Source: a virus. From it: a stretch of 51,400 nt of DNA. A program made the position numbers and the translations under genes. The notes under the pieces are model-generated. The model was not told the DNA's origin. It saw only the letters and a program-made list of their open reading frames with translations, and ran no database searches. Of this stretch, positions 3,741 through 50,560 are shown piece after piece (position 1 is the first letter of the stretch; each line of letters begins with the position of its first letter). The stretch lies in IMG/VR virus record IMGVR_UViG_3300020204_000096, positions 1 to 51,400 of that record; one strand, given 5' to 3'.

Positions 3741-3755
3741 TTTATTATACATATT
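3740..3755 (-). promoter_or_regulatory. Recurrent AT-rich upstream motif (lysis cassette)
   Basis: Reads ATATGTATAATAAAA in the coding direction and abuts the chosen ATG. It is the ATATGTATAAYAAAA variant of a motif repeated before many genes in the window. Possible promoter or translation-initiation element. Confidence 0.4.
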
Positions 3756-4437
3756 ATGATTTATATTCCCATATGTATCCTCCTGCAGTTTTATGTTTTT
3801 TTCTTAAGCATTCTGAGATACATGGTTGGGGTGTATTTGTAAAAATGGATGCATCTTTAAGAGAAGAGTATTCTTGGATAAAGTTCATGTTTTTATCATA
3901 TTGTAAAATAGTTTTACCTTTCCCTTTGTTTGGAGATATCCTTCCTTTATATGATCTATCTTTTCCTTTTAGTGGGGATGGTTTTCCTTTTTTAGAAACA
4001 GATATTTTTTCTTTCCATTTTTTACTATTTTGCCATTTTTTTCTTTTTTCCCCAAAATCTATTGGTTTTGGTTTACCTTTTAAAGATTCAGATATTTTTT
4101 GTTTTGATTCAGTTGTATGTTTTGAAGTCCCACATCCTCCTCTATTTTGATTAAGTCCAATATTGTTACTTTGATAAAAATTTATCCAATACCGTTCTCG
4201 TTCTCTTAAAATTTTATTATTTTGTTGATCAGTTAAATTAATTTGAGGTTCAACACGTTCTTTGATTTCAAAAATATGTTGATTATACCCGTATTTTTTT
4301 AAAGAATTCTTCAATAGAGAATTACTCCCCATTGAAGAACTGTTTTTGTAATGGGACCATCTTAAAAGTATATTTTTTGATAAACCAATATATATTTTTC
4401 CTTCGGGGTTAGTAATTTTATAAATTCCTCTTTCCAT
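3754..4437 (-). CDS. GIY-YIG homing endonuclease with NUMOD-type modules
   Basis: A 227-residue probable free-standing homing endonuclease. The nuclease domain opens with GIYKITNPEGKIYIGLS (residues 4-20, giving GIY and YIG) and continues with the conserved Arg in LLRWSHYKN. After a linker come short repeated basic modules (SLKGKPKP, SKKGKPSPLKGK, SPNKGKGK) of the NUMOD3 type. The C-terminal block from ILQYDKNMNFIQEYSSLKDA to GGYIWEYK resembles a NUMOD1/IENR helix-turn-helix. Inserted between nrdA and the lysis genes, and preceded by its own copy of the recurrent motif. A related endonuclease is at 49871-50560. No intron is visible in either neighbour. Confidence 0.9.
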   Translation of the reverse strand: MERGIYKITNPEGKIYIGLSKNILLRWSHYKNSSSMGSNSLLKNSLKKYGYNQHIFEIKERVEPQINLTDQQNNKILRERERYWINFYQSNNIGLNQNRGGCGTSKHTTESKQKISESLKGKPKPIDFGEKRKKWQNSKKWKEKISVSKKGKPSPLKGKDRSYKGRISPNKGKGKTILQYDKNMNFIQEYSSLKDASIFTNTPQPCISECLRKKHKTAGGYIWEYKS

Positions 4438-25909: not shown

Positions 25910-27622
25910 TTATGCTGGGAATTCTGCTCCCGTTGGTAATAAAATAAAATCTAGGGAAATAAATTCTGCTGTACGAGTTGGTTGAATATAAATTTGTCCA
26001 ATTAATTGATTATTATCTATTATATCTGGTCCATTATTTGAATCATCTATTACTACTCTAAAGGCATATAAACCTTGTTTTTGTTGAATTGTTTCTAAAT
26101 ATGGAGTAACTTTAGCAACAAATGAATTTCTTGTAGTAGCTGTGTTTTGTTCAAATACTATTGTATCTGCAATTTGACGAATATAGTTTTTTAATTCTAT
26201 CATTAAACGTCTTACATTTACTCTATCAAGTGCAGATGATGATTTTTGTAATGTTTTTTGTCCAAATACTACAACACCCTGTTTAGGTAAAGTTGCAAGA
26301 GGATTTACATTACTAGAATATAAAATGTCTTTTTGTGCTTGAGATAGTTTTGATTCAACTTGAAGGACAGTACTTAATCCCCCGCGATTAATACCTGCTG
26401 GTGCAAACCATGGGGCTGCTACTTTATCATTAAATGCATATACTCCTGGTATTAGTGTTGAAGCTGGGACCCATACATGTTTTCCTGTTCCAGGGTCAAT
26501 AATGCGAGCCCAAGGCCAATAAGTTGCAGCATATGAAGTATCTTTTGATTGAAGAGCTTGTGTTACTGTTTGTGAAATTGCAGTTCCATAAGATACTAAA
26601 TCAACTACATACATGTTGTCACCTCTTGCTATGGTATTAGTTATGATACTTGTAACTTGAGATGTATGAACATCATTTAATAATCCTGGGGTGAATAAAA
26701 GACCAAATTGGTAAGCAAGTGGATTTGAAAATAATGTGATCATATTATTATAATCACTTCCTGCTAACCCTTGAGTATTATTTGAAATTTTATCATATAA
26801 ATTAATAGTAGTATTTACATTTCCAGTAGCACCTGTAAATGAACCACCATATAAACCACTTCCATTTTGTGGAATAGAAGCAGTATATGCAGAAACTGCA
26901 ACTCCATTAGCATCAAAATAATTTATAGTAGGTAAATTAACAGATTTAATGCGAATAAACCTAGAACTATTTGGATAATCCCCTGTAACTTCTATTTGAT
27001 TAGTATTAGAATTATAATTAGTTGATTGGTTTCCAATTATTTTAGCAATATAACGGGGTGAGTTTGGATCTAAATTTATATTGTTCCAAGATTCTAATAT
27101 AACTTTATTATTTTCAGTATCATTACCCTGCCTAATTAATAAATTAAAGGTACCTGATCCTGTGTTTGAATTAGTAATTTCCCATCTTATATTATCTTTA
27201 CTTCCCAAAACTAAAGAACTACTAACTATAGACCCTGAGTTATTCATAAGAATACCTTCAGAAAGGGTTTCTAAAACAAATGAAGCTGAGGATTGGTTTA
27301 AATAAGAACTAATAGTAGTACTAGTTGCGTATTCATATGAACCAGAAGCTACTCTAGCTACTAGTAATGAAGTTCCTCCATAAGTAAAGTAATTATAAGC
27401 TGCAATTGAAGTTAAATATGAATAAGATTGTCCACCACTTATAAAAGTGTCTCCAAAAAGGTTTTGATACTCTGAATAAGAAGTAACTAGGGTGGGGATT
27501 TCAACAGGACCTTTTACTGTAGGGCCTATAAGAGCAGCCCCTGCTTGAATAGGTTGTCCTGCTAAAAAAGTTTTATCTATTTCATTTATTGATGTTCCTG
27601 GAGAAACTGTAAATTTTGCCAT
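25910..27622 (-). CDS. gp18: Contractile tail sheath protein, short paralogue
   Basis: A 570-residue sheath protein. The N-terminus (TVSPGTSINEIDKTF) and PIQAGAALIGPTVKGPVEIP (about 24-43) are typical of T4-like sheaths. The conserved C-terminal core contains YAATYWPWARIIDPGTGKHV, FAPAGINRGGL, VVFGQKTLQKSSSALDRVNV, then RRLMIELKNYIRQ. It ends with QIYIQPTRTAEFISLDF. Parallel to the neighbouring 719-residue protein along nearly its whole length, but lacking an insert near residue 110. T4 gp18 is 659 residues. Both copies look complete. Confidence 0.93.
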   Translation of the reverse strand: MAKFTVSPGTSINEIDKTFLAGQPIQAGAALIGPTVKGPVEIPTLVTSYSEYQNLFGDTFISGGQSYSYLTSIAAYNYFTYGGTSLLVARVASGSYEYATSTTISSYLNQSSASFVLETLSEGILMNNSGSIVSSSLVLGSKDNIRWEITNSNTGSGTFNLLIRQGNDTENNKVILESWNNINLDPNSPRYIAKIIGNQSTNYNSNTNQIEVTGDYPNSSRFIRIKSVNLPTINYFDANGVAVSAYTASIPQNGSGLYGGSFTGATGNVNTTINLYDKISNNTQGLAGSDYNNMITLFSNPLAYQFGLLFTPGLLNDVHTSQVTSIITNTIARGDNMYVVDLVSYGTAISQTVTQALQSKDTSYAATYWPWARIIDPGTGKHVWVPASTLIPGVYAFNDKVAAPWFAPAGINRGGLSTVLQVESKLSQAQKDILYSSNVNPLATLPKQGVVVFGQKTLQKSSSALDRVNVRRLMIELKNYIRQIADTIVFEQNTATTRNSFVAKVTPYLETIQQKQGLYAFRVVIDDSNNGPDIIDNNQLIGQIYIQPTRTAEFISLDFILLPTGAEFPA

Positions 27623-27666: not shown

Positions 27667-29826
27667 TTAAGCAGGAAAAGTTGCACCTGTAGGTAAGATA
27701 TTAAAATCTAATACAATAAATTCAGCTGTTCTTGTAGGCTGTAAATATATTTGGCCTACTAACTGGTTATTATCTATTACTTCAGGGGTATTATTTGATT
27801 CATCTACTATTACTCTAAATGCTGTTAAACCTTGTTGTTGTTGAACAGAAGCTAAATATGGATTAACTTGAGATAAAAAATTATTACGTGTTGCAGCAGT
27901 ATTTTGTTCAAATACTAAAGTATTTGCTACCTGGGATATGAAATTTTTTAATTCAATAAGTAAACGTCTTACATTTACACGGTCAAGAGCACTTCTTTTT
28001 TTCTGTAATGTTTTTTGTCCAAATACTGTTACACCTGTATTAGGGAAAGTTGCAATTGAATTTATATTGGATTCATAAAGTAAATCTCTATTACCTTGGG
28101 TTAGATTACGTTCTGTTCTAATGACATTAGACATTACACCTCTACTAATACCCGCGGGTGCAAACCATGGAGCTGAAACTCTATCATTAAATGCATATGT
28201 TCCAGGAATCATAGTTGAAGCAGGAACCCAAACTTGTCTTCCTGAGTTAGGGTCAATGGTTAAAACCCAAGGCCAATATGTTGCAGCATATGATGTATCA
28301 TATGTTATAGCATTTGTAGTTACTGGGAGTATATTGGAACCGTATCCAACTAGATCGATTACTGTCATTGCATCTCCTCTATTTTGCACTGTATTAATTA
28401 GTTGGGATACTACTGGAAAGTGGGATGGGAAATTAGTTCCATCTGCTATTAAACCAGGAGCAGTAATTAAATTATATTTATAAGCATTTTGATTTGCTAA
28501 AAGCGAAATAGATTCAGCATATGCAGAAGCCGGTAAACCTTGGATATTTGTGTTTGAAATGTTATTGTAATATGCTCCTGCTACTCCTGTTGGTAAATTT
28601 TTTCCTATTGCTCCACCAAATACACCTAAAGAAGATGTTGGAAGAGAACCAGTATATTGAGGTTTTGGATTCCCTGTATTATCAAAATAATCTGGGGTAG
28701 TCAAATTTACTTGTTTAACACGTATATAACGTGATTTATTAAGATATTCACCATTTAATTGAACATAATATTCACCATTGTCATTTGCAATAGTTTCATA
28801 TTGATTTCCAATTACTCTTTCAATATAATTTGAAGCAAATGGATCTAATGATAAATTAGACCATGTTTCTAAAATTGAAGGAGTAAGTGTAGAATCATTA
28901 CCTCGTCGAATTAATAAAGTAAAGGTTCCATTATTTACATTATGTGAAACAATTTGCCATCTAAGATTGTCTGCTGTTCCATTTTCTAATGTACCATTAG
29001 CATATAATGAACCTGAGCTGTTCATTATTTCACCTTCGGACAGGGTTTCTAATACAAATGCTTCAGTATTTGTACCTCCAAAAAATTGACTTTGGGTTGG
29101 GTACATTGTATTAAATGCATTTGAAAAAGCATTAGAAAATGCTCCAGAAATATTATTTGGTATATTTACATACTGAGAATTACCTAATAAACCATTTGAT
29201 CCAATATAAGTAAACACTATATTAGATGATAAAACACTTGAAGAAATATATTGTAATGAACTACTATATGCTGTTGCAGAACTACTAATATTAAATATAG
29301 CAGATGAGGTAACAGCATAACTTGCTGGAGTTGAATCAGAAAATGAAGCTGTATTAATATATATAATAGTTGGAGTATTGTCTACAGTTGACCCAGTAAA
29401 ATAAAATGTAATTCCATTTACTCCAAATGAACTTGAACCTACAAGGTTTACATCAATAGGAATATAAGATAAATTTAAAGTTAGTGAAGCTGAAGTAGCG
29501 GCATTTGATGAAGGAATAATTGATGAAGTAGCTGGTTCAAATGTCCCACTTACTACTCTAGTTACAAGTAATGAAGTGCCACCATTATTAAAATAATTAT
29601 AAGCTGAAATTGAGGTTAGGTAGGAATAGGTTTGACTTCCACTTAAAAATGTAGAGCCAAATTTATTTGAATAATCACTATATGTAGTACATAATACAGG
29701 GATTCCTACTTTTCCTTTTACTGTTGGGCCAATTATAGCAGCTCCTGCCTGTAATGGCCCTTGAGTAATAAATGATTGATCGTTTTCTATAGCTAATACA
29801 CCAGGTGATACAATAGTTTCAGGCAT
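27667..29826 (-). CDS. gp18: Contractile tail sheath protein, long paralogue
   Basis: A 719-residue paralogue of the adjacent sheath protein. It shares ETIVSPGVLAIENDQSF, PLQAGAAIIGPTVKGKVGIP, YAATYWPWVLTIDPNSGRQV, VTVFGQKTLQKKRSALDRVNV and the C-terminus QIYLQPTRTAEFIVLDF. It differs by about 150 extra residues after position ~105, Ser/Thr/Asn-rich and probably a surface domain, containing SGAFSNAFSNAFNTMYP. Two sheaths could assemble together, or one could form a special ring. Its own upstream motif is at 29836-29850. Confidence 0.93.
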   Translation of the reverse strand: MPETIVSPGVLAIENDQSFITQGPLQAGAAIIGPTVKGKVGIPVLCTTYSDYSNKFGSTFLSGSQTYSYLTSISAYNYFNNGGTSLLVTRVVSGTFEPATSSIIPSSNAATSASLTLNLSYIPIDVNLVGSSSFGVNGITFYFTGSTVDNTPTIIYINTASFSDSTPASYAVTSSAIFNISSSATAYSSSLQYISSSVLSSNIVFTYIGSNGLLGNSQYVNIPNNISGAFSNAFSNAFNTMYPTQSQFFGGTNTEAFVLETLSEGEIMNSSGSLYANGTLENGTADNLRWQIVSHNVNNGTFTLLIRRGNDSTLTPSILETWSNLSLDPFASNYIERVIGNQYETIANDNGEYYVQLNGEYLNKSRYIRVKQVNLTTPDYFDNTGNPKPQYTGSLPTSSLGVFGGAIGKNLPTGVAGAYYNNISNTNIQGLPASAYAESISLLANQNAYKYNLITAPGLIADGTNFPSHFPVVSQLINTVQNRGDAMTVIDLVGYGSNILPVTTNAITYDTSYAATYWPWVLTIDPNSGRQVWVPASTMIPGTYAFNDRVSAPWFAPAGISRGVMSNVIRTERNLTQGNRDLLYESNINSIATFPNTGVTVFGQKTLQKKRSALDRVNVRRLLIELKNFISQVANTLVFEQNTAATRNNFLSQVNPYLASVQQQQGLTAFRVIVDESNNTPEVIDNNQLVGQIYLQPTRTAEFIVLDFNILPTGATFPA

Positions 29827-32720: not shown

Positions 32721-33863
32721 TTATCCTATAAAAATTGTCATTGGTACATAATTAATTGTTTTTTGTTGGCTTTCTGCTTCAAGTGCTTTTTTTTCAAGTA
32801 AAGCTTTACGTGAAGTTGTATCTAAATATGCTCTTAAACGCTCTATTAATGCCTGTTTTTCTGTTGATGCAGCAGATATTAAATCGGATTGATTTAATGT
32901 TATTTCAGAACCAGGAATTGGAATATTTGCATATTTTCCTCTAATGTATCCTAATATTTCTTTTGAAATAGCTAGAGCATATTCAAATATCCAAGAACGA
33001 CCAATTGAATTTATATTAGTATAAACTGGGTTATTATATGGAACATCTGCCACATTTGTTATAACACTGCCACTTATATCTGCATACGGTTGTCTAGTTT
33101 CACTTAATTTAACATATTGAAAACAAAGTTTATGTGCATTTCGTGGAATTGGGAATATTTTTAATTGATTATTAACAAGTTCAAAAGTATATTGTGATTT
33201 TCTAATTTGATCATTAAATTCAATTGCTTGTATTTTTTGTAAATCATAATTTATAGGCATTAACATAAAGTTAATAGCAGGAGAATATGAACCCCATCCA
33301 AAACTATCTAACATTTGCATCATACCAGTACCAGTACCAGCATATGGGTCAAAATATCTTGTAATTGCTGGGGGTGCCTCGTAATATATTCTTCTAATTT
33401 CAATACCACCTGAAATACTTTGGGAAATTGCCCAAGTATTCATGTTATAATTTTGCTGATTTGCAATAAGATCAATTGAACCTGAGTAATATGTGACTTT
33501 ACCTCCAACTCCTGCTTCTGTTCCGTATTGGTTTGAAAGTAAAACAACATTAGATAATGTTTCTTGAACAAGTTTATTATTTGGAGAAGAAATAGTTAAT
33601 GGATTTCCTTGAAAAGTTAATAAATTATCTGCTACTTGGTAAGCATATACTTCGTTTCCATAGGTTGTTACTGCATCTTCTAAAGCAGTGTAGAAATTTA
33701 TATCTTGAAGTTCAATTTCGACTAATGGATATCCTAAACGTTGAGCGGCAAATTTAGCAAATTTATCAGCATCTTGTTGAAATTGATTATCATTATCATA
33801 AAATCCAAACGGTGTAGATCCAGAAGCAAATGAACTTGAACCTGGCCAAATAGGAATATTCAT
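32721..33863 (-). CDS. gp13: Neck protein gp13-like
   Basis: A 380-residue neck protein that with gp14 seals the filled head for tail joining. Features include KFAAQRLGYPLVEIELQDIN followed by FYTALEDAVTTYGNEVYAY near the N-terminus, and in the C-terminal third WIFEYALAISKEILGYIRGK followed by YANIPIPGSEITLN, a characteristic gp13 segment. Longer than T4 gp13 (309). Its ATG is preceded by a good copy of the recurrent motif (33871-33885). Confidence 0.84.
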   Translation of the reverse strand: MNIPIWPGSSSFASGSTPFGFYDNDNQFQQDADKFAKFAAQRLGYPLVEIELQDINFYTALEDAVTTYGNEVYAYQVADNLLTFQGNPLTISSPNNKLVQETLSNVVLLSNQYGTEAGVGGKVTYYSGSIDLIANQQNYNMNTWAISQSISGGIEIRRIYYEAPPAITRYFDPYAGTGTGMMQMLDSFGWGSYSPAINFMLMPINYDLQKIQAIEFNDQIRKSQYTFELVNNQLKIFPIPRNAHKLCFQYVKLSETRQPYADISGSVITNVADVPYNNPVYTNINSIGRSWIFEYALAISKEILGYIRGKYANIPIPGSEITLNQSDLISAASTEKQALIERLRAYLDTTSRKALLEKKALEAESQQKTINYVPMTIFIG

Positions 33864-33870
33864 AGTAATA

Positions 33871-33885
33871 TTTTGTTATAAATAT
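33871..33885 (-). promoter_or_regulatory. Recurrent AT-rich upstream motif (neck genes)
   Basis: ATATTTATAACAAAA in the coding direction, 7 nt before the gp13 ATG and just after the phoH-like remnant. Confidence 0.45.
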
Positions 33886-33887
33886 GG

Positions 33888-33953
33888 TTAACTTCTAAAT
33901 GATTTGTAGACTTTAAGAACATCGTCTACTATTGGATGTCTATGATTTTTTCC
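33888..33953 (-). pseudogene. Remnant duplicate of the phoH 3' end
   Basis: Read in the minus frame this gives KNHRHPIVDDVLKVYKSFRS followed by a stop, against KNHRHPIVDDILEVYKSFRG at the end of PhoH (36709-37407). The two stretches differ at only a few positions over about 55 nt, so this is a recent or constrained copy. There is no upstream PhoH coding sequence: similarity stops at about 33953. It is in direct orientation with the intact gene. Confidence 0.9.
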
Positions 33954-33975
33954 TAGTTTGTATGTTATATTAAAA

Positions 33976-33998
33976 AAAACTAAGTAGATTTTAGTTTT
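33976..33998 (-). terminator. AT-rich hairpin at end of small coiled-coil gene
   Basis: An 8-bp stem (AAAACTAA / TTAGTTTT) overlaps the last codons and stop of the 51-residue gene and is followed in the coding direction by further T. It may terminate the fibre transcript. Confidence 0.5.
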
Positions 33999-34135
33999 TG
34001 TAATTCTTCATACATTGCTAAAAGTTCTGCTTCTTTTTGAGCAATTAATTCTTCTTGTGATAATTCAGTTGTTTCAATGAATTCAACTTTTACAAGTCCA
34101 TTTTCGTCGTATATTTCGTGTCTTATTTGTGCCAT
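33980..34135 (-). CDS. Small coiled-coil protein after the fibre (51 aa)
   Basis: A 51-residue ORF from ATG at 34135 to TAG at 33980: begins MAQIRHEIYDENGLVKVEFI and ends ALLAMYEELQKLKST-like helical sequence (EAELLAMYEELQKLKST). The start shares one base with the fibre stop (TAATG), strongly suggesting coupled translation. A short beta-like N-terminus is followed by a charged helix. It may be a fibre chaperone or accessory, by position only. Confidence 0.7.
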   Translation of the reverse strand: MAQIRHEIYDENGLVKVEFIETTELSQEELIAQKEAELLAMYEELQKLKST

Positions 34136-35730
34136 TATAAATTAAATATTAAATGTAAAAAATTAACTCCTATTGCAGGGTAACTTGCACCAGATGTTGT
34201 TAATGTTGATGGTACAGAACCTAAAGAGTATGAATATAAAATATGGTTTACTGGTTGGTTACCTGCTCCTGATTGATTCCAACCAAATCCCCCGGCTGTT
34301 CCATGAGTATGAATAGAAATAGCGGCACTTGTATGAACACATAACCAATATGCAGTACCGGCGTTAAATGTATATGATTGTATTACTGTCTTAACCCCCG
34401 TAGTACTTGTGCTTATATTTGTTGATTCGTGTAATTTTGTATTAGGGGCACCGTTTAGATCACTAAAAAATAATATTCTAGCATTTGAACTTGCAACCGC
34501 CGTAGTAACATTGAATGAATAACTGACAATTGTAAAAGTTTTCATTGGAAAAAATGGATAACATCGTAAAGCATTTGCTGTTTGTCCAACTGAAAGTAAC
34601 TGTTGGTTGGTTACCATTAGTGCATTTATAAATCCACCAGATCCTGGTATTCTTGGTGCGTGAATACCTACTGGGGCTGTTGTTGCAAATGAAGCACTTG
34701 TTGCAGTTGTAGCAGTTGTTGCAAATGATGATGTGGTTGCAAATGAAGCAGTACCATAAAATTGTGCATTTTCCCAATCTAGTGATACATTTCCAACGCT
34801 ATCGTAAGCTTGTCTATTTCCCCAATCTAGTGATGTATTTGTATTGCTATCGTAAGCTGCTCTGTTTTCCCAATCTATTGATGTATTTCCAGCGCTATCA
34901 AGAGCTGCTCTGTTTTCCCAATCTATTGATGTGTTTCCAGCGGTATCTACCAATACACCATTTGCCCATTGAACTCGAACCGTACCATTGGTATCAAATA
35001 AAACCGGTTTGCCACCACCAATTGTACCTAATGTATCAATGCCACCTATAGACCCGGATGCAAATATAGATCCTGTGATTATTACATCTTGTGTGAGTGG
35101 ATTAACATATGAAGCTGTTGAAGCAAAAGATGCAGTTGTTGCAGTTGTAGCACTTGTAGCAAATGAAGCAGTACCTAAAAGTGAACCAGTTAATGAACCA
35201 GATGCTCTTAAAGCTAAACTTGAGGTTAAGGATGTAGTAGCAAATGAAGCGCTTATAGCATTAGTTGAGTAGGAAGAAGTACCTGTTAAGGTACCAGTAA
35301 AAGATCCAGTAAATGAACCTGTATTGTATGATCCACTAAATATTTCAAAACTTGAACTTAAATTAGCTATACTTGCACTTAAAGAAGCTGTAGCTGCGTT
35401 TAATTCTGCGTCAGTTGCAAAAGATACATCAAGCGATGAGCTAAAACTCTCTAAATTAATTATACGTGTAGAAAATGAACCACTAGTTGTTACAAAACTA
35501 CCTGAAAGTGATGAAATACTTGAACTAAATGATGCACTATCTGTATAATATGATGCAGTAAAAGTATTGAATGATGATGTAGTTACTAAAGAACCTGTAT
35601 TGATATTATTTGACCCAGTGATGGTAAATAAGGATCCAGTTCCATCATATATATCAGTACCATCAGTTTGAAGAACTCTATGGTATGTTGTTTCTATATT
35701 TTGACCTGTAAAATCAAAAGGTCCGGCCAT
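34135..35730 (-). CDS. Tail fibre-like protein with tandem DWENR repeats
   Basis: A 531-residue appendage protein. The N-terminal ~240 residues are Ser/Thr/Ala-rich with many short repeats (SGSFTGSFTGTLTGTSSYST, ATTATTASFASTASYV), typical of beta-structured phage fibres in Bacteroidota phages. Residues ~250-330 hold five 16-residue repeats of the form (I/L)DWENRxxxDSxGNTS. The C-terminal ~170 residues differ and likely carry the receptor-binding head. Encoded between PhoH-linked genes and the neck genes and bracketed by duplicated phoH 3' sequences, suggesting a movable cassette. Confidence 0.8.
   Translation of the reverse strand: MAGPFDFTGQNIETTYHRVLQTDGTDIYDGTGSLFTITGSNNINTGSLVTTSSFNTFTASYYTDSASFSSSISSLSGSFVTTSGSFSTRIINLESFSSSLDVSFATDAELNAATASLSASIANLSSSFEIFSGSYNTGSFTGSFTGTLTGTSSYSTNAISASFATTSLTSSLALRASGSLTGSLLGTASFATSATTATTASFASTASYVNPLTQDVIITGSIFASGSIGGIDTLGTIGGGKPVLFDTNGTVRVQWANGVLVDTAGNTSIDWENRAALDSAGNTSIDWENRAAYDSNTNTSLDWGNRQAYDSVGNVSLDWENAQFYGTASFATTSSFATTATTATSASFATTAPVGIHAPRIPGSGGFINALMVTNQQLLSVGQTANALRCYPFFPMKTFTIVSYSFNVTTAVASSNARILFFSDLNGAPNTKLHESTNISTSTTGVKTVIQSYTFNAGTAYWLCVHTSAAISIHTHGTAGGFGWNQSGAGNQPVNHILYSYSLGSVPSTLTTSGASYPAIGVNFLHLIFNL
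34765..34980. repeat. Tandem ~48-nt repeats in fibre gene
   Basis: About four to five imperfect 48-nt units, each with a core like TTTTCCCAATCTATTGATG, encode the 16-residue DWENR repeats. Adjacent units are similar enough to recombine, so copy number may vary between relatives. Confidence 0.82.
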
Positions 35731-35739
35731 AACTTATTT

Positions 35740-36285
35740 TTAAATTAATGTGTGAATAATGCCTTCTATTATTTTATTTTTTTCACCGTCACTAATTTTA
35801 TTTATTTTTAGATAAGAAGCTATAATATTATTTAATTTATCTTTACTTTTAGACATATTATTTATATTAATGTTTTCTTTTATAAGCATTTTAGATAAAT
35901 TTTGAATATGATCACCTACTTTAATGTTTTTAATGGTAATTCCCATTTTATTTTCTGTAAGTGTATTTTTATTTGCTTGAGATTTTACTTCCACGGTTAC
36001 TTTTTTAGCAGTTTCTACTTCAAAATTAGATTCCCATGGTGTAAAATACATATCATCTGCTATAACTTCAAGCCTTATTTTACCTTTTGTTGATTCTTCT
36101 AAAAGATTTTTTAATTTACGAATAGGAACAGTACATTTTCCATTAGAATCAATGGTTCCTTTAAATAAAAGATTTAAATCATCTGCTTCTACTATTAAAC
36201 GAACTTTACTGTTTTTAACTGATGCTCCCTCTAATGATATAGAACACTCAAAAAGTTCTTGTTTATCTGTGTATAAAGTATACAT
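35740..36285 (-). CDS. Hypothetical structural-region protein
   Basis: A 181-residue protein I do not recognise. The N-terminal ~100 residues alternate hydrophobic and polar residues in a beta-sandwich-like way (LFECSISLEGASVKNSKVRL, DLNLLFKGTIDSNGKCTVPI), followed by a Lys/Asn-rich helical region with ITIKNIKVGDHIQNLSKML. This could be a decoration or head-associated protein by location and fold impression, but no motif proves it. It shares its boundary base with the upstream gene and precedes the fibre by 9 bp. Confidence 0.6.
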   Translation of the reverse strand: MYTLYTDKQELFECSISLEGASVKNSKVRLIVEADDLNLLFKGTIDSNGKCTVPIRKLKNLLEESTKGKIRLEVIADDMYFTPWESNFEVETAKKVTVEVKSQANKNTLTENKMGITIKNIKVGDHIQNLSKMLIKENININNMSKSKDKLNNIIASYLKINKISDGEKNKIIEGIIHTLI

Positions 36286-36635
36286 TATTTGTTAATTTTT
36301 ACGTCTATTCCTAGTACTTCTTTAGCGACTAGTTTTATGTCTTTAATAAATATTTTAGTTTTATGTACTTCTTTAGTTTCTTGGTACTCTTTTCCTTGAA
36401 CTTTACAAAGTAATTTAATAAACTGTTTTTTCTTTTTAGGATTTTGGTTTAAATATTCTTCATAACTGCCTCCTCCTTGGATAACTCCAATAATTTCAAT
36501 TACTAAAGCACAATCATCCCATAAATTAGTTCCTATTACTTGTTCATTTGGAGGATATACATTTCCATCTGTTGGATTAACAGCATCCCAGTTAAAATTA
36601 GCATTATTCCATTGAAAAGGTATTCTTGTTGACAT
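36285..36635 (-). CDS. Hypothetical protein downstream of phoH
   Basis: A 116-residue protein opening MSTRIPFQWNNANFNWDAVN, with WDDCALVIEIIGVIQGGGSY in the middle and a Lys-rich C-terminus (FIKDIKLVAKEVLGIDVKIN). No known domain. It has no membrane segments. It is one of two unknowns inside the segment flanked by phoH-derived direct repeats and is probably translated with the next gene, whose start overlaps its stop. Confidence 0.6.
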   Translation of the reverse strand: MSTRIPFQWNNANFNWDAVNPTDGNVYPPNEQVIGTNLWDDCALVIEIIGVIQGGGSYEEYLNQNPKKKKQFIKLLCKVQGKEYQETKEVHKTKIFIKDIKLVAKEVLGIDVKINK

Positions 36636-36708
36636 TAAATTTATATACGAAATGATTTAAGTATTAACAACAATTAATGTAAATAAATTTTATTTATTAT
36701 AACTATAA

Positions 36709-37407
36709 TTATCCTCTGAATGATTTGTAGACTTCAAGAATATCGTCTACTATTGGATGTCTATGATTTTTTTCTAAGGTTATTACATTAAATCCAGGTA
36801 CTTCTTTCATATGTTTACATATGACATCAAATCCAGATGTTTTTTTATCTTTTAAATCAATTTGAGAATTATCTCCACAAAATATCATTTTACTACCTGA
36901 ACATATACGGGTTAAAAGGAGTTCAGTTTGGTTATCTGTTAAGTTTTGGGCTTCGTCTACTACAACTAAACAATTTGTAAAGTTTCTACCTCGCATAAAT
37001 GATACAGGTACAATTTCAATTTCACCTTCAGATATACATTTTTCAATTTTTTCTTTACTATACAAACGATGCATATTTTCATAAACAGGAGCAGTAAATG
37101 GAGCTAATTTTTCATTAACATCACCAGGTAAAAAACCAATGTCTTGACCGGCAACAACTGTAGGGCGAGTAATTACTATTTTTTCTATATCTTTATTAAA
37201 TAATAAATCTAGAGCAATATTGGCTGCTAGTAATGATTTTCCAGATCCTGCTTTACCACGTAAAACTGTTACAATATCATTTAATATTTGGGATTTAGCA
37301 ATTTTTTGTTCTTCGTTTAATGAAATATTAAACTTAATAGGACCTTTTGGTTTTCTTTTTGCTTTAAAAACATCTTGTGCTTTAGGAGTGCGATTGTAAT
37401 CTGTCAT
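36709..37407 (-). CDS. phoH: PhoH-like ATPase
   Basis: A 232-residue P-loop ATPase of the PhoH family, widespread in phages as a single-domain form. Walker A GKAGSGKS is at residues 51-58, Walker B is in NCLVVVDEAQNL, and ITRPTVVAGQDIGFLPGDV and FCGDNSQIDLKD are the other conserved family motifs. Its role in infection is unresolved; RNA-helicase-like activity has been proposed for bacterial relatives. It is directly downstream of the capsid gene terminator, with its own motif variant at 37417-37432. Its final ~20 codons recur as a remnant at 33888-33953. Confidence 0.95.
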   Translation of the reverse strand: MTDYNRTPKAQDVFKAKRKPKGPIKFNISLNEEQKIAKSQILNDIVTVLRGKAGSGKSLLAANIALDLLFNKDIEKIVITRPTVVAGQDIGFLPGDVNEKLAPFTAPVYENMHRLYSKEKIEKCISEGEIEIVPVSFMRGRNFTNCLVVVDEAQNLTDNQTELLLTRICSGSKMIFCGDNSQIDLKDKKTSGFDVICKHMKEVPGFNVITLEKNHRHPIVDDILEVYKSFRG

Positions 37408-49870: not shown

Positions 49871-50560
49871 TTAATTTTTATATTTCCAAATAAATCCATA
49901 AGCTGTTTTTTGTAAGTCCTTAAGGCATTTTCTAATTGGTTCACCTTGGTTTCCTTTTAATTCAAAACCAGCTTGTCTAATACTAGGCCATTCTTGGATA
50001 AAGTTTCCTTGAAGATCAAATTGCAATATGTGATCTCCAGTCCAGTCTACTTTTCTTCCTTTTAACTTTTGGGAGATTTTTTTATTTCTTTCACTTCCCT
50101 GGGTGTAATGTTTTTGGTTTGAAATAAATGATTTTTTACCTGCATCTTTATGGTTTCGGTTTTGTTTTATTTTATCCCCAAATCCTGGTGGTTTAGGTAG
50201 ACCTTTTAATTTTAATGATTGTTTTAATCTTGTTTTTTTAGTTACTATAACTCCTTGTTTTCCTCCTTGCCCTCCAAGGCTTTTATTTACTAATATTCCA
50301 TCAATTTCATATCTTTTTCTTCCATATTGAGCTATATATTGTATTTCCAACAAACATGCTTCTTCTTGGGTTAAGTTATCATGTATTATTTCTATAATAG
50401 GGTTACCATATTTTTTAACATAATATCTATGGTGTTTTCCCCTTTTCTTTAAATCTTCAGCTCTTTTATATTTTTGGTATAAAATATGAGAACCTAGTCC
50501 TACATAAAACACTTCTAAAGTTTTTGGATTTTTATGAAAATATACATAATAGTTACCCAT
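49871..50560 (-). CDS. GIY-YIG homing endonuclease, second copy
   Basis: A 229-residue GIY-YIG family endonuclease. The first motif is a variant (YYVYFHKNPKTLEVFYVGLG, residues 4-23); conserved His/Arg residues follow (RGKHHRYYVKKYGNPIIEII). Repeats of the NUMOD3 type (KLKGLPKPPG, KLKGRKVDWT) lead to a NUMOD1-like end from HILQFDLQGNFIQEWPSIRQ to AYGFIWKYK, closely like that of the 3754-4437 protein. It has the recurrent motif 6 nt upstream. It probably inserted between the oxidoreductase and kinase genes. Confidence 0.88.
   Translation of the reverse strand: MGNYYVYFHKNPKTLEVFYVGLGSHILYQKYKRAEDLKKRGKHHRYYVKKYGNPIIEIIHDNLTQEEACLLEIQYIAQYGRKRYEIDGILVNKSLGGQGGKQGVIVTKKTRLKQSLKLKGLPKPPGFGDKIKQNRNHKDAGKKSFISNQKHYTQGSERNKKISQKLKGRKVDWTGDHILQFDLQGNFIQEWPSIRQAGFELKGNQGEPIRKCLKDLQKTAYGFIWKYKN

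Follow-up and report, generated by a model that had tools for sequence, protein, structure and literature searches.

PeSL-mediated shuffling of gene modules has been described for T4-like myoviruses (Arbiol 2010 and Comeau 2014, as cited in PMC4503421 and PMC3797505), PeSLs being presented in the citing articles as short, conserved intergenic regulatory sequences that flank the exchanged modules. Swapping of distal fibre and adhesin domains in T4 gp37 and gp38 is also discussed in PMC3797505. The stretch of DNA analysed in this work, hereafter called the window, is a 51.4-kb virus record in which the genes around phoH are arranged as in Flavobacterium phage Immuto, with homologs of the capsid, phoH and neck genes in Immutovirus order. 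Gene order is shared with vB_FspM_immuto_2-6A (Immutovirus), to which PhoH and the head-completion protein are 54.5% and 48.5% identical, respectively; identity of about 50% denotes relatedness to Immutovirus, not genus membership. In that phage, the interval between phoH and the neck gene (slot A) holds one 139-aa gene and, unlike in the window, no relic of phoH. The isolate Microcystis phage Mel-JY01 also shares the gene order, and differs from the window in its empty slot (phoH lies 14 nt before the neck gene) and its distant sequence.

A sequence-only reading of the window had described near-identical direct repeats of the phoH 3' end, about 55 nt long, on either side of a fibre gene, its small partner and two genes of unknown function. 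Direct comparison of positions 33888-33955 and 36709-36776 showed that, read in the same orientation, they agree at 62 of 68 bases, and the runner-up match on both strands of the window reached 37/68. The repeat is thus real but somewhat longer than had been stated, namely 68 nt, or 84 nt at 88% identity if the adjoining leader is included (33872-33955 versus 36693-36776). As had been claimed, the short copy is in frame up to the stop codon (..KLGKNHRHPIVDDVLKVYKSFRS versus ..TLEKNHRHPIVDDILEVYKSFRG), and the four predicted open reading frames lie between the copies. The short copy comprises the last 22 PhoH residues plus stop. All genes discussed here (phoH, cassette and neck genes) are located on the minus strand of the window (Table 1). 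The short copy and its flanks are also present, with 99.5% identity over 9 kb, in IMGVR_UViG_3300021376_000370 from another metagenome, and the left side of the block was found on two further contigs (L003 and L004). Since an independent contig has the same junction and flanks, the short copy is not an assembly error.

Table 1. Features of the phoH-neck region of the window, in the direction of the genes.
Feature	Position	Strand	Evidence or remark
Intact phoH, 232 aa	36709..37407	-	Pfam PhoH 5.6e-61; ~90% nt identity to clade along its length
Diverged leader after phoH, TTATAGTTATAATAAATA; motif at 36693-36706 with 1 mismatch	36689..36708	-	
Left scar (decayed fibre-gene 3' end)	36639..36688	-	40/50 bases match L041
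Module gene, 116 aa	36285..36635	-	No Pfam or PHROG match
Module gene, 181 aa	35740..36285	-	57-92% identity to relatives in slot A, slot B (gp15-sheath) and downstream of ribonucleotide reductase
Chimeric fibre, 531 aa	34135..35730	-	Anchor, shaft and distal part compared separately
Small gene after fibre, 51 aa	33980..34135	-	
A+T-rich terminator-like hairpin with U-tract	33971..33999	-	-4.7 kcal/mol, z = -3.2
Right scar: relic of phoH 3' end, last 22 codons + stop	33888..33956	-	Sequence comparison
24-nt spacer containing leader ATATTTATAACAAA (33872-33885); cassette-free relatives have it in the same length and context	33864..33887	-	
Head-completion or adaptor gene (neck gene; earlier "gp13")	32721..33863	-	PHROG head-tail adaptor Ad2 2.7e-13

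Compared with the PhoH consensus, the short copy carries four residue changes (E to G, I to V, E to K and G to S). The C-terminal 22 residues of PhoH vary little among the approximately 100 phoH tails compared, and nearly all tails with up to 12 mismatches to the short copy show no or one amino-acid change. Because its four changes fall in a stretch that is almost invariant in relatives, the short copy looks like an unconstrained, decaying relic. That it is instead retained as a functional element, be it an RNA hairpin, a promoter or a translated peptide, is highly improbable: a 6-bp stem (GTAGAC/GTCTAC) is intact in both phoH copies, yet predicted folding barely exceeds that of shuffled sequence (z -1.4 and -1.0), other relatives have a disrupted stem in their phoH tails, and the changes in the relic are mostly non-synonymous. 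Moreover, the neighbouring leader, which is probably functional, requires no phoH sequence.

Relatives were compared at 63 distinct loci comprising both phoH and the neck gene; the close relatives are all metagenomic contigs, many of them fragments. The phoH-neck interval ranged from 24 nt to 7.9 kb and fell into five classes: (i) empty (7 loci); (ii) one small gene, F0 (26); (iii) F0 plus fibres (19); (iv) a 133-aa gene, F3, plus fibres (9); (v) the module with the 116- and 181-aa genes (2; the window and L009). At least 19 class changes were counted on the phoH tree and at least 16 on the neck-gene tree, four being the possible minimum. Slot A is therefore a hypervariable fibre slot, and the earlier view that the block was inserted or exchanged, with swapping of fibres at this site, is supported by its five cassette classes and the range of its length. 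The arrangement seen in the window is not common to all relatives with independently diverged copies, the relic being present in one of the 63 loci. Partial copies of flanking genes within the slot were limited to this relic and, in L026, to 27 nt that match the start of the neck gene. The MxxWKKVIVSGS type of fibre gene occupies slot A in L008 and L009 and is found after gp15 in L017. As a separate observation, the interval between gp15 and the sheath gene (slot B) measures only about 490 nt in several genomes with a large slot-A cassette, and L017, whose slot A is empty, shows an array of fibre genes following gp15; the two slots look complementary when L016, L034, L115 and L121 (large A, minimal B) are set against L017. 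The window also encodes two tail-sheath paralogues side by side (25910-27622 and 27667-29826), with 54% identity over 473 residues.

Downstream of the relic follow TAA, CC, the leader ATATTTATAACAAAATATT and the neck gene. Exactly this context was found in L017, L018, L022 and L024, in which 24 nt separate the end of an intact phoH from the neck gene, and the predicted deletion junction with phoH directly before the neck gene thus exists in four relatives. No deletion allele was found in the window's own species, for which no other contig spans the whole block, nor was any phage found in which phoH of this clade directly precedes this neck gene, i.e. the exact parental state. Pattern scanning for further contigs that carry either the phoH tail of this species or the empty junction returned only loci already known. 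In the first 52 nt of the neck gene, informative sites support the empty-slot type over the clade by 7:3, versus 0:13 in the next 188 nt, which suggests that the 5' end is a small patch imported from the empty-slot type; support is moderate because informative sites are few and several are adjacent. A scan of bacterial genomes yielded no relative of the neck gene.

The cassette itself is a mosaic. The window and L009 carry the module consisting of the 116-aa gene, the 181-aa gene and a fibre gene in slot A; L041, L011 and L170 carry it in slot B, and in L164-L167, L169, L171, L172 and L180 it lies downstream of ribonucleotide reductase. Relatives of the 116-aa gene are found at the same places with the exception of L180. 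The module of the window is mostly 73-92% identical to the copies at the distant sites versus 54-65% to the copy in L009, and because it is nearer to the former, the two slot-A modules were probably acquired separately. In L041, where the module lies at another site than slot A, the last part of a fibre gene and the 116-aa gene overlap. This fibre end is matched, with a broken reading frame, by the 50 nt preceding the 116-aa gene of the window; the alignment scores 56, whereas none of 500 dinucleotide shuffles exceeded 41. As this left scar indicates, the module was excised from an array of fibre genes and took with it a remnant of the neighbouring one.

When the fibre gene was analysed in parts, nt 1-152 (the N-terminal anchor) matched the fibres of the module (83% to L041), while nt 131-492 (the shaft) matched slot-A fibres of the window's own clade (80-82% to L074, L010 and L006); the distal part had no clear relative among the loci compared. 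Judged by these alignments, the fibre is a chimera whose anchor and shaft have different relatives. No match to the fibre was found among annotated phages. Pfam returned no match for the four cassette genes, and PHROG a single one, to a family of unknown function, for the fibre. The fibre gene also contains a 48-nt tandem repeat (34769-34995) encoding a 16-aa unit around NTSxDWxNRxAxDSxG, and this repeat is one unit shorter on L003 and L085, which hold the same species. Like the cassette of the window with its 51-aa gene, several other cassettes end in a small gene of about 50-70 aa. The hairpin at 33971-33999 is absent from the consensus terminator scan, which demands G-C pairs.

An element of approximately 15 nt, the leader ATATTTATAAYAAA, is shared at the cassette edges. 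It follows phoH in 61 of the 63 loci. Before the neck gene it is present in 29 of the 30 cassette-bearing loci outside the class with F0 only, and in 4 of 26 within that class. In pairs of loci of different class, identity was 0.97-0.99 in the leader core as opposed to about 0.3 on the cassette side, and terminator hairpins lie just before the leader in many cassettes. With up to one mismatch, the motif occurs at 12 sites in the window compared with 1.3 expected, all on the coding strand; these sites range from 3741 to 50580 on the minus strand and are mostly situated just upstream of genes. On these patterns, the promoter-like leader appears a likelier exchange point than the phoH repeat, although selection for promoter function would also conserve it. 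A tentative extension, which we regard as somewhat less likely than not, is that receptor-binding cassettes move between three or more fixed genome slots (phoH-neck, gp15-sheath and one downstream of ribonucleotide reductase) throughout a large clade of Immuto-like myoviruses, the late-gene leader serving as recombination linker. A GIY-YIG/NUMOD homing-endonuclease-like gene was observed beside ribonucleotide reductase (3754-4437), and a second gene, at 49871-50560, gave a weak NUMOD1 match.

We consider it very likely that Immuto-like myoviruses exchange receptor-binding (fibre) cassettes at slot A, and that the phoH repeat is a scar which a genuine exchange left there, not a swapping device. 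The cassette is composite, a module from a fibre array elsewhere probably having been fused to the shaft of a slot-resident fibre. A cassette-bearing left side may have been joined illegitimately, with no long stretch of homology, to an empty junction some 70 nt upstream of the phoH stop, which would leave an intact phoH to the left of the cassette and a stub to its right. The stub is very likely what remains of a phoH formerly located directly before the neck gene, as in empty-slot relatives, and host range may have changed with the exchange. Its source may be either the empty allele of another phage or the lineage's own phoH during insertion. A foreign origin for part of the intact phoH was considered and found to be unsupported, the gene having no clear breakpoint.

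The sequence-only reading also invites the idea that the phoH repeats drive the swapping, which is not supported. That the two copies are working recombination sites, att-like or as homology arms, for regular exchange or deletion of cassettes accords with a block bracketed by direct repeats and with the existence of the predicted phoH-neck product in relatives. Yet cassettes differ throughout the 63 loci and those of other lineages sit at this site without any phoH copy; because the repeat is present in one locus, it cannot be a general swapping device, and the different cassettes expected between the same repeats were not found, the repeat being confined to this species. As the relic is also decaying and no integrase or other recombinase was recognised among the cassette genes, there is very little to recommend this explanation. 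Nor is there support for an integrative element of the kind that rebuilds the 3' end of the gene it targets: Pfam and PHROG revealed no integrase in the four cassette genes, and among the 63 loci the flanking repeat is confined to this species.

A sub-route that overlaps with the preferred scar reading is that the cassette entered the lineage's own empty phoH-neck junction with duplication of the target, a backward template switch in recombination-dependent replication having copied phoH tail and leader twice. At phoH position 678, relic and own phoH have in common a base absent from every other tail compared, and in-lineage duplication is therefore favoured over a foreign empty allele. Both genes that flank the slot are of the lineage's own clade, and the repeat takes in the leader. 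However, the shaft matches slot-A fibres of the clade, so that the ancestral slot was probably not empty, and the empty-type 5' patch of the neck gene is left unexplained. Taken together, this sub-route seems rather unlikely.

Module swapping is usually inferred from mosaic patterns; at this locus, a single event, if read correctly as a cassette exchange, left scars on both sides. As the sampling covers the empty site, different cassettes and the occurrence of the module elsewhere, the route to a new fibre becomes readable and testable, and the locus marks the position of host-range genes in a widely sampled but little-studied group of aquatic phages.

In comparison with T4 gp37 and gp38, exchange is similarly concentrated in the host-specificity end of fibre genes, but whole cassettes also move within the genome. 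With PeSLs, as far as they are described in the citing articles, the locus has in common a conserved regulatory sequence at the module edges, here often a terminator followed by the promoter-like leader. It differs in that the leader stands before late genes, the modules carry fibres, and the nearest isolate infects Flavobacterium. The layout of the leader thus resembles that of PeSLs, and exchange may take place at the leader; under the tentative extension to three slots, the leader system would be a late-promoter counterpart of the T4 PeSL system.
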